This document shows, in pieces, positions 11,521 to 62,190 of a stretch of DNA of 64,000 nucleotides. The position numbers and the translations under genes were made by a program. Positions within the stretch are counted from its first letter, which is position 1, and each line of letters starts with the position of its first letter. The notes beneath the pieces are model-generated. The model worked only from the letters and a program-made list of their open reading frames with translations, searched no databases and was not told the DNA's origin. Source of the stretch: Bolinopsis microptera (lineage: Eukaryota; Ctenophora; Tentaculata; Lobata; Bolinopsidae); the NCBI RefSeq assembly GCF_026151205.1, contig NC_087074.1, forward strand, positions 12,815,182 through 12,879,181. Reading direction: 5' to 3'.

Positions 11521-11534
11521 CAATCCCCGATCCC

Positions 11535-18434: not shown

Positions 18435-21400
18435 ATGGGAACAGGTTCATCAAGTTTCCACTCAAGGGAAGTGTCTGTTTGCTTAGATGAAGACGTTTTC
18501 GGTAAAATAAACAATCAGCTACCAAATACTGCAGTTCCAATAGAAATCAAGCCTAAGAGGAGGCTTAATGGCGGCCAGCGACGAGTATCATTGCGTGGGG
18601 ACTCTGTGAACAAATCGTCCTCATTCTTCTCTAATGTGAGCTCCAACAAGAATGCAAATGGGAGCTTTGTTTCCTTTGTTTCTATCAATAAATCAGAATA
18701 CAAGAAACAGAATGAGAAACTGAAACATGAACTGAACGACATGAAAAGCAAAATGAGTTCACAAATTCAGACATTACTTTCATCAAATGTGGCTCTTAAA
18801 GATCAAAATGTCAAGCTTAAATCTGAAATCAATAACATAAAATCTTCTCGAAAAAAGATTCATAAAGAGCTTGTGTGCGCATTGGACGATCAACTTGCTA
18901 TGAAGGAAAATGTCCAACTCTATCAGCACAAAGTAAGTGTACTCAAAAATGTTATTTCTGTTCGGGGTAAAGATCTGAAGAGACCTGCATCATCGTCAAG
19001 TTATTCCCCATACTCAGTTGTCATCAGCAGTCAGATAGTTTCAACATTTCTTGAGTTTATGATATCCTTCTCTCAGCAACAAAACTATAAACTGAACTCC
19101 TTTTCGTCTGTTTCTATTTTTAAACGGAAGATCATAATATATGTGTGTGAAACACTGAACGAAACTGTTGCAACTAGTATTGTCAGCGAAATCCTCAGAC
19201 TATTTTCTTCGCTGATATCACATTTCATGCTCAGCAATATTTACCTTGTCACAAACTCTCTCACGGAACTAAAAGAATGCTGTGTCAACTGTGATGCCAT
19301 TATCATTGTCGACGAGTTGAACTGTATCTGTTCACTTGGAACAGAGGTTGTCACAGGAATACCTGTTCACCATCTCCAATTCTCAAGAACGAAAAGAATG
19401 TGCCCGCCAATCGAAGAGATAGGCCCATTGCTCACAAAATACAACATTAATGAACGAACTCTCTCGGTCGACGTCCAGCTTTTTGTTCTAACTTTCTGGG
19501 AGTGTGATGTTAACAGCTTTGCTCCCCTCGTATTCGATTACGCGTCATTCTTTTTATACTGTAATCAAGGATTTATCGCCAAAAAACTGTCGGCAGTGTC
19601 CTCCCAAACAGGAAATCGGTCATTCAGCGAATTTGATTTCTATGTAAAGCATATCAAGAAATCCCTTTATGTGTCATGTTCTAAGACAGACTCGTATGTT
19701 TTTATGGCACACTTGATGAAACTGTTTAGAGGGGAGCTGATTGTAACTTGTGAGGTGTTTGCCGACACCACGTTTGAGGACCTGACCCAAGCAATACTGG
19801 CCTCCTTGTTTTACCAAGTCGGGTTAGATCACAAGTTTGTTACTGTCAGCATTGAATCACTTTTTGATGTGATTGACTACCTGTCCCTGTATTTTAAAGT
19901 CATTATTGCCGTGTCGATCAGATCAAATGTTGTAACTCGGTGCTTGGAGAGGTTTCTACTGCCACAAAAGAGATCTCAGTCTGTTTGTGTTGTCTTTGGG
20001 ACTGCGGTATTTGGTCAAGTCATCAAGCTGTGTGAATCTGTTTATTTGTCAGAAAGTCACATACCAGCTCTCAAATTGAAGTCAAAAATGCGAACTCTGA
20101 GATCACTTGTCAGCCTTGTTGACTCAGAATTGGCAGGTTTTGCTAACACTTTTTCTCGCTTGCTAACAATTTTCAGATCAGGAGTCAGTGACAGCTGCTT
20201 GCTTAACCTCCTCAACATTCAGTAACAACATACTTCACATTGAAGAGGACACTTTTGAGTCTGAACATCATTTGTGAAGATATTGGACTGATAAAGTTGA
20301 CGCCGGAGATGACATCTCAAGAGGGTAACCTAACCCTCAAGAAACTTGTAACACAAAGTTTACAACACATAACACAGTGTCCTTGTAGTCATCTTCATCT
20401 CAGAGACTTACCAAACCTGTTGGAGATATCTCAAAGTCTTGAAGTTGCTCATGCTATCACCAGTAATCCGGAGGCCCTCGCATTTCATCTTTATCACAAC
20501 AGTCCCGCAATTTTGATGCAAAGTTTGAAGAATAGCGCTCAGCTTGATAATGCTTACTTGACAGAAGAATTTATCTGCTTGTACGGCAACTTCCCGTCCT
20601 CTGAACAGGTCCTGATCTATCGGATCGTTTCACAGTTGTTCTACTCTGAGAGAGCCCACTTTGAGTGTCGTTTGTTTGCGAAGATGGCGGAGGATCTTGA
20701 AGTTTACTTGGACATTGATCGGTGCTTTGCAAGCTACAGCGTCCAGGCAAAGCTTTGTGCAGAGAATCTTAAATTGTGTAAAGCTGAGTTACTTCTCCAC
20801 GAAACCTACTGCTATTCTTTACGAAGTAAGCAGATGAACGAAGCAGTTCAGATCCTTCTCCTACATTCTGGGGTTCTCAAAAGTTTGGACAGCACCAAAG
20901 CGTCTAAAAAGTGTTTTGATCGAGCTTGCGGCATCTTCCAGCACAAAACTGAACTGTCCGAAATTGAGCAAGTATTTGGTTATTGTACTTTGCTGAACAT
21001 CCTCAAAAAGTCTAAAATTATTGACTCTGTCTTCCAAAACCTGGTCTCCAAGCTTGGTAACCAGACGTCCTACCACATTGTGTGTATGGTTCTGATGTCC
21101 TACGCTTCCTTTCACGTCTCACAAGGGAAACTCAGCTGCGCAATCCCTCTGCTGGAGTATCTCAAGAACGCCCCCCGAATTCTTGTAGAACCTTATCGTA
21201 CAAAAACACTGAGAATGCTGGCTTTAGCATATCTTCAAGTAGATGACGCAGCTAAAGCTCTGGAGCTCTATAGAACTATTATCGGAAAGGAGATTAAATT
21301 TTCAAACCTCTCCGAGATAACTTATTTTCAGGATGTGTACAATTACTTGCTTGCTCTGGTTAGAAGAAGATTCTTTGGATCTGCCTACGATATTGTTAAA

Positions 21401-21541
21401 TCTCTTAATGAGAATCTTCCCAAGAATGTTACGAATGAGAGTCACAGAGTTAAGATTTTGAAGCTGTTGATGTATTTGAGAAGTGTGATCTCTAAGTGTA
21501 AGCCTAATAGTGGTCATTATCGAGCTGCAGTTTTCTTGTAG
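18435..21541 (+). CDS. Possible myristoylated coiled-coil/TPR protein, split by one frame break
   Basis: Part 1 is ATG 18435 to TAA 20225 (596 codons). It starts MGTGSSS, an N-myristoylation-like context (Gly2, Ser6). A charged coiled coil covers residues about 76-150, then a hydrophobic/alpha-beta region contains AIIIVDE at about 285. Part 2 is open from 20207 to TAG 21541 in the next frame and consists of helical TPR-like pairs (for example RMLALAYLQVDDAAKALELY). The two overlap by 20 bp with a one-base offset, so one missing base would fuse them into a protein of about 1,040 residues. The alternative is a dicistron with the second ATG at 20309. The start lies 13 nt after a 3' splice site (atttttag). 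No family is recognised; the layout resembles a STAND/TPR signalling protein but no P-loop is seen. Confidence 0.75.
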
Positions 21542-22019
21542 TATTTTGCATTCGAAGATGAATTTATTTTTTATTTCTATCTTATCATCCCAATTTCATT
21601 TTATTGAGGATTCAAGATAATTTTTAGGTTCAATAGTGTTTATTTATTCATTCATTCAACGGATGCAATTTATCAGAGTATCTAAGTGATCATGATCATA
21701 TAATTTGTCAATTTGTAAATATTGCTTTAAAAAGCTATTTGTATAATTCAAGTGAAAACTGTACTCTTATTAATTGTATTTCGATTTTTATTAAAAATTT
21801 TATAAATCATATATTCAATGATATGTTTCTCATTGCTTCAACGATATCAAAAATTCCAATTATTATCCAGCCATCGGTAAACTATACACTTCAATAATTT
21901 TCCAATTGTTATGTCCGAATTATCATAATAAACAATTCAGCAACATCTCCAAACATCATTAATTTATTGTCTAGAAAATTTCTTAGATGCTATGACGTGA
22001 TTTAAAAAGATCCGTGACG
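21542..22019. other. Intergenic spacer
   Basis: AT-rich, with AATAAA at about 21928 as a possible polyadenylation signal for the upstream gene, and tttcttag at 21979-21986 as a possible acceptor for the downstream gene. Confidence 0.4.
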
Positions 22020-23654
22020 ATGTCCAAGAAGTGTGGATCTAAAAGTGAGGAGTTGAGCGCTAAATTACGCGTAAAAGAGCTAGAGAAGGAAAATAATGTC
22101 TTGAAAAGCAGGTACGTTAAAAAAGATTAGCACGATAGCTTTTTAAATAGTATAATTTCTAAGAAGCTTCTAGAAGATTTTACCGCATTCCTCTTTGTTA
22201 GTGTAAATGAAGTTTATACAGTCCCTGTATATCACACTGTTCCAACTGTATACCGGTATCACCATGACAATTTAGCGAGTGCTAATAATCAGAAATTAAT
22301 TATGGACTGATAAGATCGCTCACAAATCATTCATATAAATGTATTATTATCATTCACTCCTCTGAATTATATTATGGTGTGATGATTTATTGACCCCCCC
22401 CCCCCCCCCCCCCCCCCGGCTCACGAATCCACCTTCCCCAGGCTTGATGAGCTGAGAAGAGCCAAGCTGCAGATGATCATCAAGAAAGAAGGGAAGACAG
22501 TTGCAAAAGGTCCTAACCTTGGCCGTAAAGCTAGCACCAGTGGTCCTATCATCGAGTCTGAGGATAGTCCCTCTCCTGAGGATACCGGAGATGTGGTTTA
22601 CAGAACAGGTGATCTTGTGATTTGTGTCAGAATTTTAACGGTCAGCGCTTTTAGTGTGACTGTTTGCTAGGGTCTAGACTTTTAAATTTTACTCTTAGTA
22701 GGATATGTTCAACAGAATCAGTGGTATCGTTTGAAATAATGACGACACATAATTAATCAGCTGCCTTGTCATAGAAAAGGTGTTTAATCAGAAGAGCACT
22801 CAGATTTCCGATAAAATTTGACTTTTTCGCATGCCCCTAATTATTATTTTGTCAAGTTCACTGTTCTGTTTTGTGTGTGACAGCTTGTCCAGAGAGTTGA
22901 ACCTTTATAAGTTGGCTTTCACGTGTGTTGAACGCGAACGAGCAGTCGACCTTTTAAACAGAGCGACCACTAGATCCTTTTAGATAATAGCTGTGGTTGA
23001 TGATTAAATTCACAGAGAGTGGCTTTATTATATTTCGTTCCTCGACCTTAACAGTTCTATCGGGATATAGTTTTAATTTTTGCAGATCCGAAGTTGGAGG
23101 AGGAGCTTGAAAAGTCCAAGCTGAAGGTATCCGATCTTGAAAGGAAGATAGAGGAGCTGAAAGAACAGCACAAAAATGAAATGTCTGGTGCTAAAGCTTC
23201 CATGCTAAACGACCTACGGACGCTCAGAGACGAACACATAGCTGAGCTACAGAAACTAGCGGAGGAATACAACATGGATTTGGACAAAAAACAGAATGTC
23301 ATCCAAAGTTTTAAGCAAAGCGTTATATCAGACTCTAATGCGAGCATGGATCAGTTTAAAGACATCATAGCAAAACTACGGGAAGAAAACACAGCCCTGA
23401 GAGAAGATAATCAAATGCAGGGAGTTCAGATGGTAAACCTGGAGATGAGGGTCAAGGAATCTCTAACGGAACTCTCAGAAAAGGAAGCAGCATGGTGCGA
23501 ACTTGAGGAAAAACTGAAGATACAGATCCAGAAAAGTTGGGGAGAGAAGTACCAAGCCTGGATGTTAGCGACCGAGAAGAAGATAGAAGAGTTGAGAAAG
23601 ACTAATGAGTTTTTGAAGACTGCACTAGAGAGGCAGCATGAAAGTGAGTTATAA
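22020..23654 (+). CDS. Three-exon coiled-coil protein
   Basis: Exons are 22020-22111, 22442-22608 and 23086-23654. The junctions keep frame (AG|gtacgt, cccag|G, ACAG|gtgatc, tgcag|AT). The protein starts MSKKCGSKSEELSAKL, has a Ser/Pro/Glu linker (ESEDSPSPEDTGD), then a long heptad-type coiled coil (KLEEELEKSKLKVSDLERK onward) to the end, about 277 residues. A strong donor (AAA|gtgagt at 23643/23644) precedes the stop TAA 23652, so the true gene may continue into exons I could not find. The MSKK..SK start and helical content loosely recall JAKMIP-like proteins, but this is not a secure match. A 22-base C-run lies just upstream of exon 2. Confidence 0.75.
22394..22417 (+). repeat. Poly-C tract in intron 1 of the coiled-coil gene
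   Basis: About 23 consecutive C followed by ggc, only 25 nt upstream of the exon-2 acceptor. It resembles the C-run ends of the TTAA elements. Confidence 0.7.
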
Positions 23655-25904
23655 TGAGAAGCGGTATCTCACGTAAATGCTTCGTGTTAGACGCATTTAC
23701 TGCATGGGTTTAATCACTAGAGCTCCGAATGAATTCTTCAGATAGGATGTGTGTAGGCCCGAAAATTTTCGCGGAATGCTTATTCTCTGGTGAAGAGAGA
23801 ATTAAAGAAATTCCGCGAGGACCTACGCGACCCTTTGATAACCGTCCTGTGACTCAAACAGTTTTTCTGACATTTACAACAGTTTTTCTTTTACTAACGC
23901 GAATTGTAATTTTTGATCAAGCATTGTTCAAAAGTATCAGACTATTTAGTATAGATAATGTATACAGTCTATTTACATAGTTTAAATTTAGTATTTAGAC
24001 TATGTCAATAGGTTTAAAAGATACACTGTGCCTTTGAAGATTTGAATCGTCCCGAATCATTCCTCACAGTACCTTAGTACAATAGTACCAGCACAACAAA
24101 GCATCTGAATTTACATATATTTGGTTAATTCCTGAGGTATTAACACTGTATACTTACTTTACTTTACTACAGGTTGTGGTATTTATTAAGTTGATGCCGA
24201 GTTTGTTGTTCGTCTGGCTCGGCTAATCAGTGTATCTGTAGATTCTGTTATATCTTCAAAGTATGTAATTCTTTAGCACAGTCACCGGTGTTTCTTGCAA
24301 TAATTAAAGCAATTGACCTGGATTTCCGCATGTACCCAATGTAGTTGTCACCCACTTCTGAAATATGATTTATAATTCAAATCTTATCGCTTTGTTGTAA
24401 TGCAAAAGCGATGCCTAAGTGGTCAAGGAAAGTCAAAATTTGATTTATTTTTAATATTATAGCCGAGGCTGTGACGTTAGTCCGTCTTCATAGGATAACT
24501 CGAAACGATCCCATTATTCTATCCCTTTATTAGGACAGGCAAAAGGAATGATTTGATGCCATTCTCATTAAAATGGCCCCAGGGGCTAGGATATTTGCAC
24601 TGGGAGTTCGCTCAGCTCAAAGGAATTATAAACGATTTATAATGCGTCTCCCTGATTTATTGTTTCCCCAAGGATCAGACATAATTTGCTGCTGCTGACG
24701 CAGAATATATTAATAAACCCAGCGGACGCTCCCTTGCTTGTCTCTTGTTGTTTTTTGTGTGAGCTACTTCTCTTAGCTCTTGCACAAACCACAAGCCACT
24801 ATTATAATGATATGTTGTCGGCAATCACTAAATGGCCTCTTAAATCTTTATTTCAAAAATACATCTGAGCCTCTAAATAGTCTGTAGTTCTTGTAATGTC
24901 GGTAACAGTTCCAACTATCATTGCTCTCGATTTGGTTAACGGTAAACTGTCCCTAGTTAAGACATCATTATCTTGATTCTCAGGTCAACGCAATCTAGTG
25001 ATAGGCGACTAGAAATAACCATACAACTACAGTGCAAATACCAAGAAAACACTCCCTGACTCCCTGCCACCTCTCTGGCCTTATATTATTATATTAACTT
25101 AACTTAAGTATCCCACGATCGTCAAAACCGCCACAATCCTCCTGGTGGCAATTGCCCATCAACTCAAACATTGGTGTTAAGTTTGTTAACTTCAACTGGA
25201 TAGTGATATGCTAGGAATGTATAAGGGTTGCGAGGAAAACAATGATACAAGTTCGGTAAGTGTCATTCTCCACCACTCTCTCCATCGCTGCTATTTGGCA
25301 TTGTCAACCGACAGTAACTTGGCTATTACACTTCTATGTTGTGGAACTGAAAATATTTTATCACATTCATTGATTTGTTACAGAGAATATGTTGTTAAAA
25401 TGATTAAATATTCGTTTAGAGTACCATACAGTGCAAAGCACTCGACAACGAATAGGAGTATCATATATACAATAAAATTATTAATTATCCTAAGACCTAA
25501 CGACGTTTCAACTTTCATTTGTTAAGATATTTATAATTATTTTCCGTAGCTTTGTTGAAGTTTCTTAAGTAGTCTGAATGAGCAATGATTAATATTCTAC
25601 GTTGAACTGCTCAGTTCCCAATAAGATAGTTGGCTAGAAGGTTTATTTGAGCTAAAGTTAAAAGTTAACATGTTCCGACCTGTTTGATATTATGTAGTTT
25701 AAAGGTTTTCCTAGTTTAGTAGTTTTGCTAAAACAGATTGTTAAGCCCGATTCCAGTGCTTGTTTTATATGGAAACCATTTAGTTGTGGCGGTTGCGGAT
25801 CGAATAAATTGTCATTTTCTATGGCTTGTTGCATAATGAAATATATTTCAAAAATTTCATTTTTCTATTTGAGAAGACCTTTCAAATTTGTGTCTCCGAA
25901 TCAA
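23655..25904. other. Gene-poor stretch
   Basis: Open frames of 60-105 codons occur but show no recognisable domain, and none has convincing splice sites. I see nothing functional here. Confidence 0.35.
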
Positions 25905-26615
25905 GTTATAGTGTCCGAGTTACAGTGTCCTAGTTACAGTGTCCTAGTAACAGTATCCTAGTTACAGTGTCCTAGTTACAGTGTCCTAGTTACAGTGTCC
26001 TAGTTACAGTGTCCTAGTTACAGTGTCCTAGTTACAGTGTCCAAGTTACAGTTTCCAAGTTACAGTATCCAAGTTACAGTGTTCAAGTTACAGTGTCCTT
26101 GTAACAGTATCCTAGTTACAGTGTCATAGTTACAGTGTCCAAGTTACAGTATCCTAGTTACAGTGTCCTAGTTACAGTGTCCTAGTTACAGTGTCCTAGT
26201 TACAGTGTCCAAGTTACAGTGTCCAAGTTACAGGGTCCTAGTTACAGTGTCATAGTTACAGTGTTCAAGTTACAGTGTCATAGTTACAGTATCCTAGTTA
26301 CAGTGTCATAGTTACAGTGTCCAAGTTACAGTGTCCAATTTACAGTGTCCAAGTTACAGGGTCCTAGTTACAGTGTCATAGTTACAGTGTTCAAGTTACA
26401 GTGTCCTTGTAACAGTATCCTAGTTACAGTGTCATAGTTACAGTGTCCAAGTTACAGTGTCCAAGTTACAGTATCCTAGTTACAGTGTCATAGTTACAGT
26501 GTCCAAGTTACAGTGTCCTAGTTACAGTGTCCTAGTTACACTTTACAGAATCCAAGTTACAGTGTCCAAGTTACAGTGTCCAAGTTACAGTGTCCAAGTT
26601 ACAGTGTCCAAGTAC
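25905..26615 (+). repeat. 14-bp minisatellite (GTCCTAGTTACAGT), about 50 copies
   Basis: Tandem copies of a 14-bp unit with variants tccaag, tcatag and atccta. Variant copies recur in blocks (tcatag..tccaag..), indicating higher-order duplication. Confidence 0.95.
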
Positions 26616-26654
26616 CAATATTTATATATGCTATGAAGTATGAGCGTGTCTTGA

Positions 26655-27160
26655 CATGTCAGGTTTGTGTACCTCAGCCGGCAGCAATATGTCAGGTTTG
26701 TGTACCGCAGCCGGCAGCAATATGTCAGGTTTGTGTACAGCCGGCAGCAATATGTCAGGTTTGTGTACCGCAGCCGGCAGCAATATGTAAGGTTTGTGTA
26801 CCGCAGCCGGCAGCAATATGTAAGGTTTGTGTACCGCAGCCGGCAGCAATATGTCAGGTTTGTGTACCGCAGCCGGCAGCAATATGTAAGGTTTGTGTAC
26901 CGCAGCCGGCAGCAATATGTAAGGTTTGTGTACCGCAGCCGGCAGCAATATGTCAGGTTTGTGTACCGCAGCCGGCAGCAATATGTCAGGTTTGTGTACC
27001 GCAGCCGGCAGCAATATGTAAGGTTTGTGTACCGCAGCCGGCAGCAATATGTCAGGTTTGTGTACCGCAGCCGGCAGCAATATGTAAGGTTTGTGTACCG
27101 CAGCCGGCAGCAATATGTCAGGTTTGTGTACCGCAGCCGGCAGCAATATGTCAGTACATG
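26655..27160 (+). repeat. 33-bp minisatellite, about 15 copies
   Basis: Unit gtttgtgtaccgcagccggc + agcaatatgtcag, with copies alternating between gtcag and gtaag. Because 33 is a multiple of three, frames stay open on both strands for about 500 bp (VCVPQPAAICQ on plus). One copy is shortened by 6 bp. Starts about 40 bp after the 14-bp array ends. Confidence 0.95.
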
Positions 27161-27470
27161 TAGGCGCTAACGGAGCGGCATGACATCTTGACAGCTATTA
27201 ATGATTAAACGGGCCGGGTGGATCTCGAGAGTTGAGAGTGTGCAGTTGTAATTGAAGTAGCGATCAAGTTGAGATTGTTGGTCACTAATATACGCTACCG
27301 TTTATAAATTATTTGTCACAAACATATGATATCGTTTATAGATTGTTTGTCACAAATTAAGTACACGCTATAGTTTGGCATGTCACTTACACACGCTATA
27401 GTTTACGATGGTTGCCCCGGCGCAAAACCAGCAGTTGTGAGGGACTTTATCATCCCTAATAGCCTAATTG

Positions 27471-28218: not shown

Positions 28219-28327
28219 CAATGCATAATGATAACTACTTATCTGCCTGCCAGAGGGTGTGCCCCAGATAAGTGACTGAGTTGAGATAAAGAGATAAACA
28301 TTTAGCACATAATGCAGTCCCTATATA

Positions 28328-29400: not shown

Positions 29401-29475
29401 GGGGGGGGGGGGGGGGGGGGGCTGTGTATTTTGTGATGTAACCTAATGCCCTATTTTGCCCCCCCCCCCCCCCCC
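29401..29475. repeat. G20 and C16 runs 40 bp apart
   Basis: A run of about 20 G (29401-29420) and a run of about 16 C (29460-29475) could pair as a hairpin, or the G-run could form quadruplex. No TTAA is present at the ends. Confidence 0.8.
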
Positions 29476-35400: not shown

Positions 35401-38400
35401 ATAAAGTTCTCTTAAATTTCCGGGGGGTCTGATACCTACCAGCGACCGTTTTTCTAAAATTAATCTGTCTTTGGTGAATTAAGCTGTTGGCTACAAGTCC
35501 TCAAGGAGTTATGTTGTAGCGTAGGGCATCGTGGTCGATATAAAGATCATAATTAGTATACGCCCAACCTTAATCAACGCTTAAACCTCCTGATTTCCCT
35601 GCCAAAGGAGAATGTAAACTTACCCTGCGATGCAGTTCGAATATACTCCTCAAATATCAGAGCTTCTCGAATGAGAATTGATTTGATTTCTGTTTTGTCC
35701 ACAGAATGAAAGGTCAAATCTTTCAGTTGTCTAGAATTCAATTATGCAATATGCAATATTCAATAAATCACAACTTAATTTAATATTTTCACCTTTTTGA
35801 CCTGTTAAATGACATGTCAAGCAGCTCGAGAGCCACCAATCCCAAACCACCAGGTCAAGTTAATATTCGCGGTCAGAATGACAGCTACCTTCAACCAATC
35901 TATCAGCTCACAGCTGGAACGTGCCATCATACTCCAGCTACCTTCAACCAATCTATCAGCTCACAGCTGGAACATGCCATCATACTCCAGCTACCTTCAA
36001 CCAATCTATCAGCTCACAGCTGGAACGTGCCATCATACTTCAGCTACCTTCAACCAATATATCAGCTCACAGCTGGAACGTGCCATTAAATACTCCAGCT
36101 ACCTTCAACCAATCTATCAGCTCACAGCTGGAACGTGCCATCATACTCCAGCTACCTTCAACCAATCTATCAGCTCACAGCTGGAACGTGCCATCGTACT
36201 CCAGCTACCTTCAACCAATCTATCAGCTCACAGCTGGAACGTGCCATCATACTTCAGCTACCTTCAACCAATCTATCAGCTCACAGCTGGAACGTGCCAT
36301 CATACTCCAGCTACCTTCAACCAATCTATCAGCTCACAGCTGGAACGTGCCATCGTACTCCAGCTACCTTCAACCAATCTATCAGCTCACAGCTGGAACG
36401 TGCCATCATACGCCAGCTACCTTCGACCAATCTATCAGCTCACCGCTGGAACGTGCCATCATACTCCAGCTACCTTCAACCAATCTATCAGCTCACAGCT
36501 GGAACGTGCCATCATACTTCAGCTACCTTCAACCAATCTATCAGCTCACAGCTGGAACGTGCCATCATACTTCAGCTACCTTCAACCAATATATCAGCTC
36601 ACAGCTGGAACGTGCCATCATACTCCAGCTACCTTCAACCAATCTATCAGCTCACAGCTGGAACGTGCCATCGTACTCCAGCTACCTTCAACCAATCTAT
36701 CAGCTCACAGCTGGAACGTGCCATCATACTATACTACAGCTACCTTCAACCAATCTATCAGCTCACAGCTGGAACGTGCCATCATACTCCAGCTACCTTC
36801 AACCAATCTATCAGCTCACAGCTGGAACGTGCCATCATACTCCAGCTACCTTCAACCAATCTATCAGCTCACAGCTGGAACGTGCCATCATACTCCAGCT
36901 ACCTTCAACCAATCTATCAGCTCACAGCTGGAACTCTCCACCTTAGTGTGGTACCACTTTATTTTCGATATACAACTTTCTAGAGATGGACGCTCTCAAT
37001 CTTGAGATATATTACATATTATTAATATGGTGTATATTACATTATGCACATGGCCGTCATGTGGACATGACTCTGTATTATACCTGTTACTTGTATGCAA
37101 TATCCCTTCATTCACCAGGCATCTGAGAGTTTTATATTATAAACCAGTTTTAATGCAAGTTTAATGCTTGCACAATGCACGCGGGCGGCGACATACCAGA
37201 TTAATCGAGAACTTTTAGTTAGGATATCACTTAACTTGATTATTATTACTTTCCTTAACCAACAAAATCAGACATCGACAATATTCTGTGCAGCCACTGT
37301 CATCAGTAAAACGGTCTGCACTCTGTCCAATCCAGCTGACAGAAGTCTCATTAAAGATCCCAAATCAACTTACGGTAGGTCGGAGATTACAATAATTAAA
37401 AGTGCAGTAACGAATGATATTTTGTTAAATATAAGTGATGTTCTGAGTGATTTTTTCATAAAATAGACCTTTTTTCCCATAAGCTTGTACGTGATCTGGC
37501 CACATTTTTAGCGTCCGAATCATAAAGTTCGATATTAATGGGCACAAGCTGCGCTGTATCAATCTATGAACAGCATGCACACAGCTACGATGTACATGGA
37601 TGTCATATGTACTTTGTTCTTCAACCTGTGATACTGGTAACAGCATCAAAAACAATTGCTGTCACAGCTCGTACCAACATATTATTACAAAATAACATTT
37701 CAATATTCTGACAATGTTGGTCACACTTTACATGTGTCAAGATCATATTAAGTGAAGTGTTCATTTTTAAGTGGAAAGGGAGTAAAATCATGATTTTTGA
37801 ATTATTTAACAATTATTGTGCAGGTAAAGAGAAGCCGCTGTTTGACAGAGCAAAGCAAGGTCACGTGATTAACACGGACAACTACTGTCAGATTTGTACC
37901 ACAACAGTGTTAGTCAACATTTAATTGTGTGACGACCGTTTGTTTGGGGACCGGTTTTTGGTACACCGGCCAATGTTCACAAAATCATATGATACATAAC
38001 AATATAATTTTATTTAATATACGCACGAATACTGAATATGAGAATTGAAAATTATGATGTAACCTTTATCGTTATCGACCGTATTATTATATTATTATAT
38101 AATATAATATTCATGATATGAGTGTTGATATAAGTGTTGATTGAGAGCAACATATTTTGTCAGTATATTCTGAAAAATTGTAGAAGATTGTTGAAAATTG
38201 AAGAAGATTGTACTTCACAGTAATTCAAGTAAGATATGAGGATATGAGAGGTGACCACTAACTCATCTTTCAGAGACGTGTCCAGCAGACACTGTTCACA
38301 GTGCCAGAAGTGTATTCTGAGGTTTGACCACCACTGTGATTACATTAACAACTGTGTGGGTCGTCGGAACTACAAGTAAGTTAGCCAACATGTCAACGTG

Positions 38401-41400
38401 ATTAATTAATTAATTAATAATAGTATGTTAGGGTAGAGCGTTGAGAGTAATGTGGAATTATGTATGACTATATCATCAGTTGCATGCGATCTATTATTTT
38501 GCGGTGATAGAAATGAATTGTTGAAGAGCCTTCCTATACCGATCGAGTACCTCTGGAATGAAACATCTACATTATTAATGAAAATAGCAATACTGATAAC
38601 TACGATATGTTATCCCTGAACCAACACGATGGACATATTAGCGACAAGAGAAACTAAAGGTTATAAGTTTATAGTTACAATATTACCATCATATGGCTCT
38701 TACTTGACCACTTGCCTCTATAATATTTCAAATAATTAAAAAAGTCTCATATCTTTACGAGCTTGTAAATAAGTAAAACCAATAACGTTTATATCAATAT
38801 GATGGATATGTAGATTAAGATAGCAAACTATTCTTCCCATTGAATAAGCCTCTGATCATAGCTTCTGTTTTAGTGTTTAATTGTCGCTGACTTTGTTCCT
38901 TCAGTTGTCTCCATCTCTTTTCCCCTTTTTGATATCACCTTATTCACCAGCAGACATACGCTCATAATTGAAATCCAGAAATTCACAAAGCATCAGTTTC
39001 TTCGTCTTCTTGTTGTGGGTTCCAAAGACGATGACTCTGCCTGGTGTCAGCCAGCCTCCGACCCCACACATAGCATCACTCATACTACTTTTCACATTCA
39101 CCTCGTCACCAATGACGTAGTCCCTTCCAGCGTCCCGGTGTACTTTCGTAACTACAGCAACAGCTGCCGCTTTTTGTGAGTACAGAGCTCCTGGGTTTTC
39201 CCATACTCTATTTCGTCCCAGAGGTTTCTTCTTAGCGGGTTTTGAGTGCAAGACTTTTTGTATCCGCACTTCGATGATGCTCTCTTTTGGATCACGGTCA
39301 TACGGGTTACTTCCCATGTAGCAGGAGCAGGTAGCTCCTAACTGGAGTAAACACGCTAACAGTATCACTAGCTTCATCCTAGTAGTGATAAATTGTTAGT
39401 GGTAAACTGACAACTTCAAATCTGTACAAACATAGAATATATTATGTAGTGTTTAATTTGACTAGATAAAAAATCTGTATAAACCGTGATGTTATCATAG
39501 CATAGCATAATTTACACATTAAAAATAGAATATACAATATACAATGATGGTAAAAGTAGGAGTTTAAAACGTGGTAAATATAAAAGTTTTAGAAAATGAT
39601 AAACAATTTAGATGTATCAAAGGAAACTTGAAGAAGCAACAGAGGAATGTTAACCCAACCAAAGGAATTGAAGCTGGTTAAATTCCTAAACTCAAACCGA
39701 GTTAATTTTTTGATGATTTCATAAAGAGATAAGAAGATAATTTGATTTAGAAAATCGTTGCCTGCGTTGCTAGGAAAGGTTATCTTCCGGTAAACTTCAT
39801 CATCTCGTCCGTGTTAGATTTATTAGATTAACGATTAAGGGTGATCAGTTGAAATCAGTCCCGGATATACTTTTTATAAATTACCTGATGTTTCAACGGA
39901 AAAAATAGAGTTTTAAATATATGCCCAGATTTATTAGTGTTCAATAATGCACCATGTAATAATAAATGTCCTAGCCAACTAGAACTGTACCTCAATTTGT
40001 GTTGGTTCTTGTCTGTTACAAGCGAGATCTTACTTTTTGATTAGAGACTGGGTAAAGAATACAGATGCTCCCTCCAGAGGGTCTCTTATAAATCAAATAG
40101 ACCAGCTCAATAACCTTAACTGGTGCTCACTACCTGGTGCTCTCCGGTATATCCTGCGCGGCACGTGTTTCATTCATTTCATTATTTTTAACATCTCCAT
40201 CTGGTACACGTGATGAGCAATATGCTGTGATGAATGTCTGCGTGGGACGCTTACTTGGCTAGAAATTCTCAAATAAATGATAGCACCAACACGATACGCC
40301 TCCTCTGGGTGCCATGATTATTACTGTACTGTAATTTTCTGATTTGCTGTGCCAGCCGTTACCGCTGTAACTTAGCCAGACCGGGAGTATATCCTGGCGC
40401 GAGTCCAATCCGAGCATCTGTTTTAGTTTTAGGGTCGCCATGGAGGGGTGTTGATAAAGAGTACTTTTTCTCAAAGTAGCGCAAGACGTGGTATTGTTCT
40501 GTGCTCAATCCTTGCATTATAGCAACCTCATAGGTGTTAGCTCTTCAATAGAATGGGTGTCAAACCAGACAGTGATCATTGTTAGAGGGTTTAACCTACC
40601 AGCCTAGACATTCTTCCGCCTATAAGATTAGTTTGGTGTAATACGACCTCGTCTGATTTGATAATTGATTGCAACCGGTACAGGATGCCAACTAACCATT
40701 ATGATATTATAATATTAAGAATTACAGTCGGAGCATCTGTTGCTGGATCAGGCAAAAGTTTCCCAACCGTAACAAACACTTCTCTCAGGTACTACATAAC
40801 CTTACTGATGTCTGCCTCAATCTACAGTCTCATAGTTTTCACCAATATTCTCTACATCATTTACCACTTCTGCTTCATGGAGACGCAGTTCTTCAAAATT
40901 CTAGGTAAAATAAATATTGAATATTTTAACGTTCAGGGAGCTGATTGTGACAAATTGATTTAGGGTTTTCTCAAACAACTTGACAAGATGTCTAATTCTT
41001 TAATGTCAGTGCAATGGTTGATTTTGAAGTTATAGTCACATTAAAGCTATAAAGTTATTAAGCTATAAAGTTATTAATATGTATGAATATTGCGTTCAAT
41101 CATCAAATTTGAGATTCCCACCGACTCGTTAGTCACCTTTGACATAAAAATCAGATTTCTTTTTCGCCCTCTGAAGCATTTTGCTTCAACTATTTTAGGA
41201 CTCAAGAATTAAATAGGGGTATTTATCTTCCGTTTATGTCGAAAATATATATTACAAATTAAAATTGCTGATGCCAAAGCAATTCAATTTAAAATTTGAA
41301 TTTAATCGATTTTCGATTACAGTTGATATTGAAACTAATGTCAAAGAAGCTAATAGCGATCATGATATAGACTGTAAACAATGAATATTTTAATATTTAT

Positions 41401-42543
41401 TAAAAATGATATAAACTATGCACAAATGGATCAAATTCATTAAAAAAGAATTAAAAGTCATTTACAAATACAATTCTAATTCGATCTCCTGCACACGATA
41501 TATTGAGTATGTAGACCATTGCCTAACTTGTTCACACAGCCAAAAATCCTCATGAAGGCATCTTCATTATCGTATTACCAGGTTAAATCAAGTAACGAAA
41601 TTAACAAATAAAACGAAACCTTTGAAGAACCCTTACACTGCTGCAGCTGCAGAGATCATTATAGTAATGTTTTGAGTGGCAACGAACCGTAGCAACAAGA
41701 ATTGGATACTTTTTGGAACACGCGAAAATAATTATTAATATTAAAGTTTTCACTATCGCTTCGCAGTGTAACAAGACGCGCGCGCGCGAACCTACAATTT
41801 ATGAATTTAATGGTTAGCCGGTCACATACTGTGTAACACATGTGCAAACTAAAATTTGTAAAACTAAAACTTTGTCTTTAGTTCAGATCCGACATAATAT
41901 TATCTGACAACGTAGAAATAATGATCAGCTAAGATCTACAATAAACTCAGAAATTCTCAGGTCGTGACCATCCTACGATATTTGGTTACAAAGTCTCCAG
42001 TGCTACAATAATATCGCTTCTAGTCATCTTTTTAGTGCTAGCTGTTATTGCCTTCATCTGGTCTCAAATCTCTGCAGACTTCATCTTTATCTTATTTGGC
42101 ACGGCTGGACAACGTGGGATTATTATGTTAGACCCAAAGCTGAGCGGGAACAGCATTCCTATTGGAAATACGAGGTAAGTTAAATATATAAAATTGGACT
42201 GCAGTCGACACATCAATATTTTTCAAACAAACGTCCCTTACTGAATAGCTCCGTTCTCTCTAAACCGAAACCGCTCAGAATTTCTAAAAATAGCACTGGC
42301 TCGTAGAAAAAAAAGCAGAATGTGCACAGTCACAGTGCAGTGATCACCCCTAATCACTACCACTCAACTCAGGCGGAACGAGATGGTAGAGTAGAATTCT
42401 CGGTAACAGAGGTGTCAACCGCTCCCACTTCAACCACAGACCTCGAACTAAAGACCAACTCCGGGCGGAAACTGTCTGAGAAATTGTGCAAAGTTTTGCA
42501 GCCGGACAACAAAACAAGTCCGATGCCACCGCATACTGTCTAG
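32407..42543 (+). CDS. DHHC-type protein S-acyltransferase (ZDHHC1/11-like)
   Basis: Exons are 32407-32466, 32674-32769, 37272-37374, 37824-37908, 38274-38375, 40789-40904, 41961-42174 and a last exon from 42307. All junction phases agree. The product is a four-helix Golgi/ER-type palmitoyltransferase. TM1/TM2 are in exons 2-3, then NPADRSL (the DPAD-like motif before the zinc domain), the cysteine-rich domain [12 protein letters not shown] with the catalytic [17 protein letters not shown] intact, then TM3 and TM4. The start [13 protein letters not shown] resembles the NGW-x-WP-x-x-x-LQ start of ZDHHC1. In the last exon the frame reaches TGA at 42343 after a run of eight A; one more base would instead open a 78-codon hydrophilic tail to TAG 42543. 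The start is 7 nt after a 3' splice site. Intron 2 is U12-type. Confidence 0.9.
33003..33057 (+). repeat. Short tandem GTAGTAACC
   Basis: Five to six copies of a 9-bp unit inside the U12 intron. Confidence 0.7.
34968..35022 (+). repeat. Short tandem GGATTATGTC
   Basis: Five copies of a 10-bp unit. A second 10-bp tandem (aactgacagg, about eight copies) lies at 35173-35246. Confidence 0.8.
35882..36935 (+). repeat. 53-bp minisatellite, about 20 copies, in the U12 intron
   Basis: Unit ctaccttcaaccaatctatc + agctcacagctggaacgtgc + catcatactccag. Each copy contains CCAAT and the E-box CAGCTG. Since 53 is not a multiple of three, all three plus frames stay open across the array by cycling; these are not genes. 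One copy is extended (atactatactacag) at about 36728. Confidence 0.95.
37940..38075 (-). mobile_element. Solo LINE 3' end in zDHHC intron 4
   Basis: Matches the 3' UTR of the LINE at 6925 (tttggggaccggtttttggt, then ataacaatataattttattt). Flanked by the 7-bp duplication CGACCGT (37933-37939, 38076-38082). A strongly 5'-truncated insertion. Confidence 0.85.
38940..39377 (-). CDS. Secreted TIMP/netrin-like (NTR) domain protein
   Basis: A single-exon 145-residue frame. A signal peptide ([16 protein letters not shown]) is followed by a mature N-terminus CSC. In TIMPs, Cys1 at the free N-terminus coordinates the metalloproteinase zinc. Four cysteines remain in the mature chain (CxC, then AMCGVGG and LMLCEFLDF), the number needed for the two disulfides that tie the CxC to the body in TIMP N-domains. 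The GRVIVFG segment matches the YLIAG-type strand of the fold. There is no C-domain, so it is N-domain only. It lies antisense inside zDHHC intron 5, and its ATG is 1 nt after a 3' splice site (actag|g). Inhibitory activity is inferred, not shown. Confidence 0.85.
   Translation of the reverse strand: MKLVILLACLLQLGATCSCYMGSNPYDRDPKESIIEVRIQKVLHSKPAKKKPLGRNRVWENPGALYSQKAAAVAVVTKVHRDAGRDYVIGDEVNVKSSMSDAMCGVGGWLTPGRVIVFGTHNKKTKKLMLCEFLDFNYERMSAGE
39378..40788. other. Rest of zDHHC intron 5
   Basis: No exon is supported. A 71-codon minus frame at 40259-40474 has no recognisable domain. Confidence 0.4.
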
Positions 42544-43349
42544 TTTGCAACTATAATATACAACCAAACTAGGATTTTAATGAGTGTTTTGTTTCAGTTG
42601 TGTTAAATGATCATATTATGTTTTTTGTGGTTTTTCGGGTAAATCATGATACACTTTTAAGGTAATTTCGAAACTATACATATTTTTGATTATTATAGCT
42701 GGATATTAAACTATTATAATTATTAAAAACTGCAGTCGTACTTGACTCTCAATGAATTTCGAGCTAAAATTCCAGATTAGAATGATTATTATTAAATTTA
42801 GTTCCTGGTCTTAATTCGTCTGATGCCTAAAGCTTTGAAATTAGAACTTGAACCATTAAGGGGGGGGGGGGGGGGTTCACCCTGATTTTTTTGTGAAACT
42901 TGGTTTCGAGATAGCAGTTGACCAACAAACTAGGACCAGTGACCGAACTTTTGAGGGGGTCCCGGACCCTAACCGCGAAACGGTGCCCGCGGGGCAGCCA
43001 CGCCCATATTTGGTCCAAATTAGGCCCAATTTAGCCAAATACCCTGAACATGCCCAAAATCCAGATTTTAGGTGCTCTACTTGTAGCTAGTGGTTCCCTG
43101 AACTCGTATATGAATTTTCATCAAGATTGGACAAAAAATGAATGAGTTATGAGCAAAAAACCATATGACCATATTTGGGCATACGCACCAAATTTGATCG
43201 ATTTTGGCCCATAAATTGGGCCAAATTAGCTGTCTTTCCGAAAAGGTATAACAAATTTAGTACTGTGAAAATTCTCACAGTCTCTAGAAAACAATGGTAC
43301 AAAAAATTTTAAAATCCGAGCAAGTTTATTTATATCGTGCACCCCCTAG

Positions 43350-44234: not shown

Positions 44235-45341
44235 TTGGACAAAAAATGAATGAGTTATGAGCAAAAAACCATATGACCATATTTGGGCATACGCACCAAA
44301 TTTGATCGATTTTGGCCCATAAATTGGTCAAATATCAATATTTTTGAATAAAACCAACTTTATATGGAAGGTAAGCCTATACTACACATTATCTATGATT
44401 ATCAGCTCTGTATCTACCTAACAGTGGATTCTGTATTCAAATAATCGCAAAAAATGAACAAAATTGCCCATATCTCAGTTCGCGATATTTGCAAAACTGA
44501 CTTCGCTCAAAACAATAGAACTCAATAGGGTTTCAATATTTTTTCATGAAATTTTCAGAATCAACGTAGAATTGTCTCATGACCTTAAGTTTTGGGACAG
44601 AATTTTGAGTTAGGCCTTTAAAAAAATTTGGCGGCCAAATTCCAAAATTTGCACTGCTAAATTTAGAATTTGGCCGCCAAATTTTTTTAAAGGCCTAACT
44701 CAAAATTCTGTCCCAAAACTTAAGGTCATGAGACAATTCTACGTTGATACTGAAAATTTCATGAAAAAATATTGAAACCCTATTGAGTTCTATTGTTTTG
44801 AGCGAAGTCAGTTTTGCAAATATCGCGAACTGAGATATGGGCAATTTTGTTCATTTTTTGCGATTATTTGAACACAGAATCCACAGTTAGGTAGATACAG
44901 AGCTGATAATCATAGATAATGTGTAGTATAGGCTTACCTTTCATATAAAGTTGGTTTTATTCAAAAATATTGATATTTGACCAATTTATGGGCCAAAATC
45001 GATCAAATTTGGTGCGTATGCCCAAATATGGTCATATGGTTTTTTGCTCATAACTCATTCATTTTTTGTCCAATCTTGATGAAAATTCATATACGAGTTC
45101 AGGAAACCACTAGCTACAAGTAGAGCACCTAAAATCTGGATTTTGGGCATGTTCAGGGTATTTGGCTAAATTGGGCCTAATTTGGACCAAATATGGGCGT
45201 GGCTGCCCCGCGGGCACCGTTTGGCGGTTAGGGTCCGGGACCCCCTCAAAAGTTTGGTCACTGGTCCTAGTTTGTTGGTCAACTGCTATCTCGAAACCAA
45301 GTTTCACAAAAAAATCAGGGTGAACCCCCCCCCCCCCTTAA

Positions 45342-49600: not shown

Positions 49601-52600
49601 CGTTAGAATAACTCGATACAATTACATATCTATACTTTGGTGATAACATCTCTTTTAGGCTGCTATACTTTCGAATTTCCCACTCATAATACAAAATCCA
49701 AAATCATTTACCTGCAGCTGGCTCAGGGGCCTCCTTAAACTCAACAAGAGTTTCAGCTTCGACAATCTCAAACTTGGGAGTTACAGAAGGATGTGATGGT
49801 ATGAGTTCAGTCTGTGAGTTAACAATCAATACATTAGGATCTGAATCTCCTTCCAAAACAAGGCACTCCTCTTCCTCTTTCTCAACAGGTGCTTCCAATT
49901 CAATCTCTTCTTCAGATTCTTCTTGGATCGCACTCGGTATTGGGTCTACTTCATCTTCCCCAGCCTCTTCAGGGATATCCTCCTGTGCGTAATAGCAGGG
50001 ATTACAAGTTGCAAGTATGTCAAACAAATTTCTCATCTTTCTACCAAATTATACGAATGTCTTCGACCGGACATATAGCATGACCTATATAATTATACCC
50101 TGTATTATAAAGATATGAGTCCTTGTACAACAGCGATTAAGGTCACAGTAAAACTCTCAAAGACAATACCTCTGGTTTAATCTCAACAGAAATTCCAGGG
50201 TCCTCCTCATCGGGAATCAGCTGTGCTAAGGACTGGTTCTCACTGGGCACATATGTCATCGACAATTGAGATTCTGTCTCTTCAAGACCCTCAGCAGATT
50301 CGTCCTGTGGTATCTTGATTTAGTTTCACGATTTTTCAATGATATCTGAGTATACCTTACTCGGGAATATTATAGCGGGTTAATTTATGACTGGGAAAAT
50401 AAATAACCGGGAAAAATATGGCGGAATTTCCCAAAACCCGCCAAATTATCCCGGTCATGTATTTACCGGTGGCCGACCGTTCAAGTTTTTTTTCAGAGGT
50501 CAACAAATTTTCAACCGAAATTTCTGTTTTTGTTACTTGTTAAAGAAGTTATTTCAATTTACAGTTACTGATATTACTCAGAAATAGAAAAAAAGACACG
50601 TCTATGGCGGCCGAGATTGCTCTTTAGTATTTAAAGGAAAATAAATCTATAGCAATAATAAGTCAAATCTTCATTAAAGCGTATTCTCATTCTCATTATC
50701 GCTAATGTCCCCTCCATTATCATTATTGATATCCCCCTGCTGCTGACCGTCAAATTCGAAGTTGTATTGTTGTCTTAACAAGACTTTCATTTTGTCCGCT
50801 AATGGGGCTACTGCTCTGAAGGTCAGCCGGAGCTTAATTTCCTGCCCACCGCTTGGTATTGGGGAACGTCTTGGCTTTGCATCTTCAACTGCTCCAGTAA
50901 TCAATCCACCGTGGACCATGAAATAGTGGCACAGTTTACTCACTTCATGGGCAAGAAAAGTGAGAATCACGGTCCACCCTGAAATCTGATTTCCATAACC
51001 AAATTGTGATTTTTATAACGAAATTATGGTAGCAACCGCCAATAAAGTTACAGCCCTCCATCCACTGCTTCAAAAGTCTTCTCTAGCACATATGAGACTT
51101 CAGGTAAAATATGATGATCACCACCCCCTTGGAACCCCATAATCTGAGTCGGCGGGTTTTTTTATGACTGGTAAAATTTTTGACCGGGAAAAATATGGCG
51201 GAATCTTCCAAAACCCACCACTTTATCCCGGTTATAATAATCCCGAGTAAGGTAGCACTTAGCAGGATAGTTTAAGCTCGAGCTGTTCAGCATTTTTACG
51301 CTCATGATATGATAAATTTACTTAGAGCCGACTGGAAATCTGGTCCCGTGATGCATCCAGGATAATAACAAACGGGCTTACCAGTTTAGGAGAAGTTGGA
51401 GTGGGAGGAAGATCCATTTCATCGAAAGCACCAATTGTTTCCTCCCTCTGATCCTGTCCGGAGTGAACACTCTTTCTAACTCGGACTGACATAGGTTTAG
51501 GAGCAGAACCTGTGAGGTATCAGGGTCAGGAAGTGCTAGTGCCAAGTTGTTAACCGGTGGGACGGATTAAATACACATGATTTCATAATTCCTCGTTTTA
51601 GTCGCTGATAAACAGTGCCGTTATAATTAACATAATTAAGATTAATAAGATTATGGCATTTTTCCATGTCTGTTCTAGATTTTACCTGGTTGAGTGGGTA
51701 GAGATCGTTTTGATCCAGCTGATCTGTTTGCTAAATCCATCCTGACTCTTTGGCCGTACTCCTTGCGAGCTCATGTCTAATCTTACATCCGACTTGGCTT
51801 CTGCCTGCCTTTTGGTCACCAATCGCTGGTAGTGGTTCATCCGCGGTCTGCTATAACGGTAATTGGTAAATTGGTTGTCGACCTCAAAATTTTAACAGTG
51901 CGTAATTTGTATGGTTCTAGAACCTGCCCGTTCCAATTTCAACGTTTAAACTTCTGTTTACAGATCATAAATTACCTTTATCTTTCTTCCCGACTGTTGT
52001 TTTCGTTCAACTTTTCTCTGCATTTTCTTTTTATCACCACGCATGAACACTTGATAAGCATCAATAAGTCGCTCAAACTCACGTTCCTTTGACACGACTC
52101 CCTCTAGCCCGGTACCGTAGCGCTGGATCAGGCTCTCCAGGCATCTCTGAAACAAGAATGCACATGATTATGCCGGAAATCTGCAATGAGGCTGAATCAA
52201 CAAAAGTCAAGTGCCTTAAATTCTTTGTAACGTAAGACTGGATTGTGATATGCTCCACTATCCAGAAAATATATCAAAGGGTTTATAAGGTCTACGATCG
52301 AGTGCATTGCATGAAATGTTGAGAGCAAAACCCTAATTCTCAGGGTAGTTTTAAGGTTTGATTCTCATGAGTAGACCATAAAAATGTATGCCTTCCGTCA
52401 ACATATAAATAATGCTAAGATCACCCTACAAAATATAAAGCTACGGATTCAGGAATCAGGACCATCGACCTATTAAAGAAAAATTTAGCAAATTTGCGGT
52501 TTCGGGGTCGTACAGATTCTCGATGACAGCAATGAGCCCTAATATGATTTTGAATTAAAGTTCCGTTAGGATTTTGGGAAAACTAAGGTTTGAGAACTAT

Positions 52601-58400: not shown

Positions 58401-60848
58401 TAAACTTGGTGACCTCAAGACATCAAATTGTGTCAGTGTAATAAAACACAGCACCGACAGACCATAAGATACCGCACCATAATCCTCAAATTTTAATTAT
58501 GAAATTGGGCGATCGGTGATCAGTGATCTGGATCACAGTTTATTTTCATCATTGATCTCACGGTGATCCAAGTTATTATCTGGTGGAATCAGATTCAGTC
58601 ATTGTCATGTCGATTTATTCAGAATTGGCGATTCGCTCTCATTTAATCATTTGCTTTTCGCCATCAGTTGAACTTGAAGTTTTGCTAAAGAATAAGTTTG
58701 CTTAATAACCCAATCCCTTACCTGTAATTACCTGTAATTAACTGTAATTTGGTAAATTGCAGAGCGGTTTCAACTTTCAAAATTTATATGATGGATCTGC
58801 CGTCTACTTAAGAAATCGAGTGGAGATTGAATTAGTTTCCAGTACGGATCTTCGGTACGGATTTAAATTTATAACTGGTATCATAAATCATAATGTTATA
58901 CTTTTATGGTAAAATTCTGAACAAATTTTTTTTAAATGGAACCTTTTACTCTACCACTTCTTTGCAGCTTACTGTGACCTGCCTCCATGATAACCTATTT
59001 ATTAATTGTGCTTGTTACACCAACAGCCTGGTATAAGCATACATGGGCATTGGGCATCATAACTTGTTGCGTAAATCTTAACACAACCTAGCGAACAAAA
59101 CAAATTTCGGACATGGCAGACTGGGGTGCTCATCATAACAATGGTAGCTAGGCCTAGAGTAGCTCGGATAGTTCAAGGAGTTCCTAAATCTTTAAATCCT
59201 ACCTTTGTGAGCAATATAGACGAGATGTTCACTGAGTTAAGTAAAATCTGGCATCTCTTTGAAGGAGATGACGTATAATTGGAGAGAATGGAAGAATTTT
59301 GGGCTTAATCATGCTATTAACAGGTGATTAAGGTGCCGTGCCTAATGGTTAATACTAAGCTTAATCTTCACTAATAAACTTACCGGCGAGAACAAAATCA
59401 AAAATTATTGCTTTTCAGGCCCCACATGCTTTTACACCTAATATACTTAGCCTGAAACTGAAACCCTTATTCACACAGTTTGAATCAAACTAACAGGTCT
59501 GAATTCTCACGTAACTAAGGTTTCATTATGTTGTAACTTGTAAACTAAACTTTTATGAAATAACAAAAATTGAACTTTTCCTCAACAGGTGCTATTCTAG
59601 TAAACACGTGTTTTGACACAGCGAATAGGGCTCTGACTATGACTACACCATTCTCGGCAGCATGTTAACAAGGTTTTTAATCTTCTACCTCCCTCCAACT
59701 TCACGTCAATATCGACTCATCGCAACTTCGGCTTTAATGTTCGTTCAGATGAAGAGCTCACATTGCTTCGAACTAAAAACTTCAACATAGTTTGGTTGTC
59801 AAGTTGGCTTATGACCTTGAAAAATCGCATAGCCAAGTCCTTAGTTAATTACACTAGTTTTGTTGCAGTAGAAGGATTGATATGCAAACATTTTAGATCT
59901 ATAGGCTTCTGCACCTGACTTCTCTCGTCTGGAGAAGGACTTGGCTGAATAGGGACCATCAAGGTCCAAGGAGGACTGGGGGCAGTCTCTAAAGTTTGTG
60001 CTAATTTTAGACAGCACCTGCGGTTGTTGTTGCTATCTAAACGGTGTAAGGATTATAATAAAACAGCTCCGCACGTGTTGCATATAATATGGGTCACATA
60101 TTCATGATCGAGCAATAATGTCTTAATGCCATTGTCATTTGGCATATGTGCAGTTTTTTTGCTGAAGGTATTCGTGACTCATGCAGTTCAGACTTGCGGT
60201 AACCGTTCTCCAGGGTCCGGGTATTTCATCGTTTCAGGAATGCGTTAGTGCTAAAACTGCCGCACTCCACGATTACAAAATATTAGCAGATTTCTACACC
60301 AGCGTGTGTTTTATTACTTGGTGCTAAACGGCAAGGTAAGCGCCCATGCTGCTTCGTAATTATTTCAATAGTTTCATTTACTGTCTTGTTCTGGGAACCC
60401 TCCATGAAGGTCGCCATATTTCTATATTTTTATAAAATAATTGTCGTAAGGTGAGCACGGTCGTATAACCACCGTCGTTTATTTTGGCTATTATTGTAAA
60501 TATTATTGACATGGACACTTTTGTTGTAGTTAGTGACATTTGGTATTTCATTGAAAATTCAGCTTTCATTTAGAAATATTCGGATAAAACGTATTTGCTA
60601 AATGAAATTTTTCGGTTATGCTCACTTTTTAGTAGTTTGACCACTAATGATTGATTTGAGTAATTTACGTCACAACCTTAATTAAGAATAATATGGCAAA
60701 AGTTTCGTACGATACAAATTCTTACCAATGCCAACATCGGTGCCCAATACCCATGACAATAAAATGATTGCACTAATGAATCCACTCAGAAGCACTATCA
60801 ATCTAATTTGTCGAAATTGGATCCTATCACCTATTGCTCCATTGTAAC
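55499..60848 (-). CDS. Scattered candidate exons of an unidentified gene
   Basis: Four minus-strand segments have splice-site pairs and open frames: 60848-60726 (RQIRLIVLLSGFISAIILLS, one membrane helix; donor G|gtaaga), 60017-59915 (FRDCPQSSLDLDGPYSAKSF), 57135-57072 (KLGIGHLSFNETPPNTQV) and 55575-55499. The last two join in phase and continue to a stop near 55464; the first two do not join each other directly, so exons are missing or some calls are wrong. In another frame 55575-55499 reads EAVRQTQQNSLLQDLSMARR. The 5' end would lie beyond 60.85 kb, opposite the GPCR. Function unknown. Confidence 0.3.
56307..56830. mobile_element. 524-bp TA-flanked MITE, TACCTTACGAGA type
   Basis: Ends TACCTTACGAGAAATATTTA and aatatgtctcgtaaggta. 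This is the uninterrupted relative of the split element at 6465-9897. Confidence 0.85.
57136..59914. other. Gene-poor stretch
   Basis: No supported exon. A short tandem of acctgtaatt lies at 58722-58748. Confidence 0.35.
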
Positions 60849-61156
60849 CTACAGTGTTGTGAAGAGACAAATGGTATCATTTTATTAAGGATGACAGCAG
60901 AGCGCATAAATTCCATGGTTCAATAAATTAGCGGCGACAATGGAATCCACTAGAAGAAGAATCCACTAGAAGTATAAAATGGTGTCAATGACAACATTAT
61001 TTGTACCCCTAGCTTCCTGACTAGATTGACTGGATCTCTTATAACCCTAGAAAGATTTTTATTTGCTAGCTCATCCTTTTGTAGTCTCCTTTTCTTTTGA
61101 AGAACATTGAACTTTTGAATTAAGTTAAACTAAAATTCGATACTTTTTAGGTGAAG

Positions 61157-62190
61157 ATGTCAGAAGTTGCAGAACGAGCAATCCTCTGCTTTGTTTCCTA
61201 CTTCATCGTTATCATCGGAAGCATCTCCAACCTAATATCCCTTTCCTACTTCATCCGTCAAACCAAGAGAAGTCCCTCAACCTTCATCTTCATCACTAAC
61301 AATGCGTTAGATCTCATAGTCTGCATCACTCTAACCCCTGTTTTACTCTCAACCACTGCTGGAGGAGCAGCTTTACTCTTTCACTTTCAGTGGTTCTGCA
61401 CTTTCTGGAACTTCTTCTATGCGTTTGCTCTGAGAATGTCGATGTTTGTCATGGCTGTGTTGTGTGTCACCAGGACCCTCTCGCTGGTGAAGCCGCTCTA
61501 TGGTGTTAGAATCTGGCACCTTGTGGTATGTCTTGTGGTTTATTTTATATTTCTTGTGGTTTCCCGCGTGGTTGTCGTGGAGAGGGTGGTTTACGATGCT
61601 GGTCACATGTTTTGTGTTGCCAAATATAACGCTCACTTCGCTGCAAACTGTACCACAATTCTGACAGACGTCAGCAAGATCTTGGTTCCCATTGTTCCGA
61701 GCATAGCTGGATGCATCATTACAATTTGTTATTTGAGGAGCTCAAGACGGATCAAAGGGGCTCAAGGAACAACTCAAAGACACAACAAACACGATGCCAT
61801 AGTTACGGTAGTAATCCTTACTATTCTGTTCTTGATAGTGACAATGCCGCATTTCGTGCTGCTGATTTTCCAAGTGATTTGTAATTTGTCGAATGAAAAA
61901 GTTTGTGTTAGCCTCCCCACCCAGTTTCTACACCACCTGTTCTGCTTCTACGTCCCCACCCTGAACTCTGCTTGTAACCCCTTAGTGTACCTTATCGCAT
62001 CAAAAAGTTGAGAACGTATTCGCTACAAATTCTAACTTGTGGTATGAAGGGCGGAGATAGGGTAAAACCATCGGAATATGATAGCAGAATAGTTCATGTT
62101 AGATCACCCTTACGGGCAGCAACCGGAAATATATCCCCTTATTGCAATATGGAAACCCCGGCAATCTGCAAGATAAATGACATACAATAA
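61157..62190 (+). CDS. Rhodopsin-like (class A) GPCR, one frame break in helix 8
   Basis: A single-exon seven-helix receptor. TM1 carries GSISNLIS, TM2 has NNALDLIVC, and TM3 ends in CVTRTLSLVKPLYG, where the usual DRY is TRT. Extracellular cysteines FCTFW (start of TM3) and HMFCVAKYN (second loop) could form the standard disulfide. TM7 ends CNPLVYLI (NPxxY present). At 61990-61996 the frame runs SKS-stop; one extra base in the AAAAA run would continue into KKLRTYSLQ, a typical basic helix 8, and on to TAA 62190. Without it the receptor ends right after TM7 (TGA 62011). The start ATG is 6 nt after tttttag. The ligand is unknown. Confidence 0.88.

Follow-up and report, generated by a model that had tools for sequence, protein, structure and literature searches.

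Four apparent frame breaks in a 64-kb window of the Bolinopsis microptera genome: assembly error, mutation or gene model?

The window and its features

The window, meaning the whole 64-kb stretch of DNA analysed here, corresponds to C3:12815182-12879181 in an assembly of 264,652,675 bases and 232 contigs, in which the 13 large contigs together hold 258,070,895 bases (97.5%), with the largest reaching 26.2 Mb and an N50 of 20.8 Mb. For Bolinopsis microptera, Table 1 of PMC11797021 gives 265 Mb, 13 chromosomes, a largest chromosome of 26.2 Mb, an N50 of 20.8 Mb, a GC content of 38.5% and 346 scaffolds, and the assembly of this species as described in PMC10232365 was produced with wtdbg followed by Pilon polishing with Illumina reads, 97.23% of its bases being placed in 13 scaffolds.

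Only 28 frames of at least 100 codons are present in the window. A 53-base tandem repeat of approximately 20 copies at 35882-36934 is open in all three forward frames, 53 not being divisible by three; Pfam gives a CRPV_capsid hit on it (E 3.9e-9), which seems to be an artefact of the repetition. A 33-base tandem repeat of approximately 15 copies (26656-27154), open on both strands, is adjoined by an array of approximately 51 copies of a 14-base unit (25904-26613). At 11439-13781 on the forward strand lies a LINE-like frame with reverse transcriptase and RNase H, which is interrupted by an in-frame stop at 12111-12113 without a change of frame. On the reverse strand, a small secreted-looking frame with cysteines (38940-39395), reminiscent of TIMP/NTR proteins, gave nothing over the cut-off in Pfam.

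Four genes of the window, referred to here as sites 1 to 4 in order of position, had been proposed in a sequence-only reading to lack exactly one base each, as a consequence of residual deletions in the assembly, and to be probably intact in the animal. Sites 1, 2 and 4 lie on the forward strand and site 3 on the reverse strand. In what follows, a break is assigned to the missing-one class when one additional base restores the frame, a class that lumps the loss of one base with the presence of two surplus bases.

Sites 1 and 4: two single-base breaks

The gene at site 1 consists of two long frames that abut, an upstream one of 596 codons (18435-20225, +) and a downstream one of 444 codons (20207-21541, +), whose offset is of the missing-one class. 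As the frame-zone test shows, the change may lie anywhere within the 21 bases at 20205-20225, and the break previously placed at 20207-20225 is borne out; the longest A-run in this stretch is of two bases, and it holds no homopolymer. This is the single lesion of a gene that is otherwise open and in which no introns are apparent from the sequence. A search of the genome found no second copy, the sole match being the window's own.

The first approximately 176 residues of the site 1 protein matched human NPHP3 in blastp with an E value of 2e-6, in a search against this one human sequence, and its N-terminus appears to resemble nephrocystin-3. The likeness to NPHP3 would comprise an N-terminal motif and a coiled coil; the two differ in that the remainder of the site 1 protein has no significant match to this NPHP3 sequence, Pfam or PDB, and in that the site 1 gene has no visible intron. 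For the TPR region that nephrocystin-3 carries at its C-terminus, the Pfam search of the protein returned only TPR_14 (E 0.02), which is under its cut-off.

Removal of an 86-base GT...AG stretch at 20137-20222 (+) as an intron would bring the two frames together. The translated stretch, however, aligns with the NPHP3 sequence at a level equalled by 9 of 2000 shuffles, and against the same sequence the unspliced form of the gene performs better than the spliced one (shuffles as good in 12 of 1000 and 58 of 1000 cases, respectively). The intron was set low for these reasons, and we consider with moderate confidence that the stretch is probably coding.

The gene at site 4 encodes a rhodopsin-like receptor in a frame of 286 residues (61151-62011, +), which matches Pfam 7tm_1 with 54.8 bits against a cut-off of 30.5 (E 1.3e-14). 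Like the Pfam 7tm_1 receptors elsewhere in this genome, it carries the seven-helix profile across the whole frame; unlike them, it continues as assembled for just four residues beyond profile column 319 before reaching a stop, whereas 84 of the 87 sibling loci examined reach that column and each of these runs on for at least 12 further residues. When scored against a profile made from no more than 31 sibling loci, one receptor being included twice, the frame as assembled yielded 194.0 bits, which rose to 209.0 bits (a gain of 15) when the frame beginning at 62008 (62008-62190, +) was joined after an X. Appending the other two frames gave 194.4 and 193.6 bits, a gain of approximately zero; the first join made had scored 204.2 bits, a score equalled by one of 200 shuffled tails. 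Because of this gain in the profile score and of the tail lengths of the siblings, the frame from 62008 is very probably the true continuation of the receptor. A codon score trained on receptors was dropped as a test of frame, as it separated the frames mainly by their stop codons.

The change of frame at site 4 can be placed anywhere in the 36 bases at 61976-62011, a zone that includes an A5 run at 62002-62006. The break itself is real, but this run lies ten bases from 61992-61996, where the A5 had been placed previously. As at site 1, the gene is otherwise open and carries this lesion only, and no second copy able to replace it was found in the genome search.

Two sites that can be read without a lesion

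At site 2, a penultimate exon with hydrophobic segments (41960-42174, +) is followed by a GT...AG intron at 42175-42306, which makes an A8 run (42307-42314) the first bases of the following exon; from this run a frame of 78 codons extends to its stop (42307-42543, +). When the exons are joined at 42306, an early stop is encountered, and joins at 42315 or 42318 halt at the identical place. With acceptors ending at 42329 or 42335, the long frame is reached and followed to its end with nothing missing, although both of these acceptors sit behind nearer AGs and look weak by eye. A short natural tail can be taken as a third reading in which no lesion is needed. The A8 run on which the proposed break was based is therefore present, but the mismatch arises only with the acceptor at 42306, 42315 or 42318, and there is no firm case for a broken gene; the site is best treated as an uncertainty of the gene model, for which the splice readings suggest several lesion-free solutions. 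Neither Pfam (nothing over the cut-off) nor PDB (no credible relative) assigned the protein to a family, the genome search for relatives of the exon returned the window's own copy only, and a class C receptor would be a guess. Just past the gene, two near-identical frames of approximately 75 codons are found on opposite strands approximately 2 kb apart (42860-43090, +, and 45110-45337, -), and these are probably two inverted copies of one mobile element.

The gene at site 3 is likewise dependent on how it is spliced. With the donor chosen in the sequence-only reading, the frames required at the two ends of exon f (51850-51686, -) disagree, and the exon is opened by an unknown base inserted at any of 42 positions (51772-51731); 43 removals of two bases open it equally. 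With a donor that starts the intron at 51961 (GATCT|GTAAAC), the preceding exon e (51962-52146, -) and exon f are open throughout, ending three codons into the next exon, and another reading has a single in-frame stop with the frame unchanged. The 42 possible points of insertion make the position 51760-51770 and its short A-run an arbitrary choice, and the claim that the site is cured by one more A does not hold, other insertions doing equally well. The break at this site hinges on the gene model and, judged from the frame tests, is best treated as an uncertainty of that model, a lesion-free splice reading being available. The site 3 gene has no credible relative in PDB and nothing over the cut-off in Pfam.

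Frame breaks elsewhere in the genome and the cause of those in the window

The frequency of such breaks was estimated from two gene families. The receptor survey returned at least 136 matches including the window's own; 87 of the other 135 listed, short-looking ones included, were read frame by frame, and the other 48 were judged from their table rows only. Among the receptors read, clean frame breaks were found in L025 and L037 (missing-one class) and in L036 (surplus-one class), with L034 standing outside this count, and in-frame stops were found in L035, L041 and L042. The break of L025 lies ahead of its A5 run, whereas that of L037 may lie inside an A5. Compared with its neighbour L009, to which it is 91% identical, L036 has four gaps that amount to a net eight bases lost; its break looks natural in this alignment, which implies that real decay occurs in this genome. 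The kinase survey also returned at least 136 matches, and 92 of 136 rows were used, 44 weaker, short or tandem ones being left out. In these 92, the domain is spanned in one frame by 69 (one with a stop) and is partial in 23, eight of which were inspected: L096 and L097 proved whole, L098, L100, L102 and L103 look split by introns or stops, and L099 and L101 are frame-broken, their mutual alignment showing one extra base in L099 and five extra bases elsewhere in L101. HSP70 was set aside as a control, since few of its copies are unsplit.

Of the 227 genes surveyed outside the window in the receptor and kinase families, at least 5 are thus frame-broken as assembled, three in the missing-one and two in the surplus-one class, which corresponds to approximately one frame break per 44 kb if 1.0 and 0.92 kb are assumed per gene, the survey being a lower bound. 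At this rate, two firm breaks in the 5.2-9 kb of coding DNA have a probability of 0.006-0.018, and four a probability of less than 1e-4, values that overstate the surprise because the window was noticed for its breaks. Four real breaks in the window would still be many, despite this selection and the lower-bound rate.

The shared sign of the four breaks had been put forward as an argument for a single cause, on the grounds that all need one extra base and never two and that independent decay would give mixed signs. All four do fall into the missing-one class when read in that way, but the class includes two surplus bases, and the chance that four of four breaks fall into the same class is 0.125 if both signs are equally likely and 0.25 under a deletion bias of 0.7, a share of natural indels that is an assumed figure. 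On these values the agreement in sign was rejected as proof of one cause, and the argument does not hold for the five broken genes elsewhere, which show both classes. The further statement that two of the breaks lie in A-runs concerns the A8 at site 2, where the break itself is doubtful, and the A5 at site 4, which falls within the 36-base zone of that site but elsewhere than was given.

On balance, we favour a reading in which sites 1 and 4 carry real single-base breaks that are likeliest to be residual deletions in the consensus, and in which sites 2 and 3 reflect uncertainty of the gene model. One-base consensus deletions of a long-read assembly would have survived short-read polishing at sites 1 and 4, and the two genes would probably be intact in the animal. 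We infer that the cause at these two sites lies in the assembly rather than in biology, because a single lesion interrupts each gene, whose frame is otherwise open, because the genome search found no further copy of the gene at site 1, and because the assembly was made with wtdbg and Pilon. At sites 1 and 4 the original proposal of residual deletions in probably intact genes is the best fit; at sites 2 and 3 the lesion-free readings put its premise of a broken gene in doubt. According to PMC12007338, on bacterial nanopore assemblies, false deletions make up the majority of indel errors and are commonest after 4-5 equal bases and after A and T runs. Like the gene-fragmenting errors described there, sites 1 and 4 lack one base of an otherwise open gene, and site 4 also has an A5 run; the comparison differs in that those errors are from bacterial nanopore data, that site 1 has no homopolymer, and that the consensus alone was read here. 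Counting against an assembly error are this missing homopolymer at site 1, the position of sites 1, 2 and 4 on a chromosome-scale contig polished with Illumina reads, the frame- and stop-broken relatives elsewhere, and the excess of the two firm breaks over the genome-wide rate.

The strongest alternative, which we regard as unlikely though with some weight behind it, is that sites 1 and 4 carry genuine mutations, either young pseudogenes or null alleles in the individual sequenced. Both families surveyed, receptors and kinases, do contain frame- or stop-broken members, and an unplaced contig of 35.8 kb, C68, aligns at 96% identity with two stretches of C3, approximately 2.0 and 0.7 kb long, at 15.52 Mb. 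These surround a kinase gene (L094, L095), and the two sequences differ there by several multi-base indels and at least once by a single base within an A-run. Judged from this similarity, C68 may represent the other haplotype or a duplicate of recent origin; in the former case natural indel alleles would be common, and the breaks of sites 1 and 4 could belong among them as true null alleles. Set against this are the presence of one lesion only in each gene and the failure of the genome search to find a replacement copy of either.

That all four breaks are residual one-base deletions, as was first proposed, is improbable: the missing-one class throughout, under the gene models of that proposal, and the A-runs at sites 2 (A8) and 4 (A5) speak for it, but sites 2 and 3 can both be read without a lesion, the position of site 3 floats over 42 bases, and four breaks in 5-9 kb would be expected with p <1e-4 at the rate elsewhere, albeit for a window picked for its breaks. 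Recoding at the A-run of site 2, by programmed -1 frameshifting or by slippage, is highly improbable, since the in-frame A AAA AAA heptamer that the site carries when spliced at 42306 is followed by RNA that folds no better than shuffles (z 0.18, 107 of 200 as good, pseudoknots being outside this test), and programmed frameshifting was rejected at sites 1, 3 and 4, whose breaks have no in-frame slippery heptamer. A ribosomal or transcriptional slippage on the A8 that gives one membrane protein two C-terminal tails is just as improbable; if it were true, the tail in the normal frame would be short and that in the shifted frame long, with up to 78 codons.

The finding favoured here, of residual consensus deletions at sites 1 and 4 and uncertain gene models at sites 2 and 3, is overall an ordinary one. 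It matters for counting genes in this comb-jelly assembly, where caution is due: with at least 5 of 227 surveyed genes frame-broken as assembled, an apparent gene loss needs a check of the reads before the gene is called lost.
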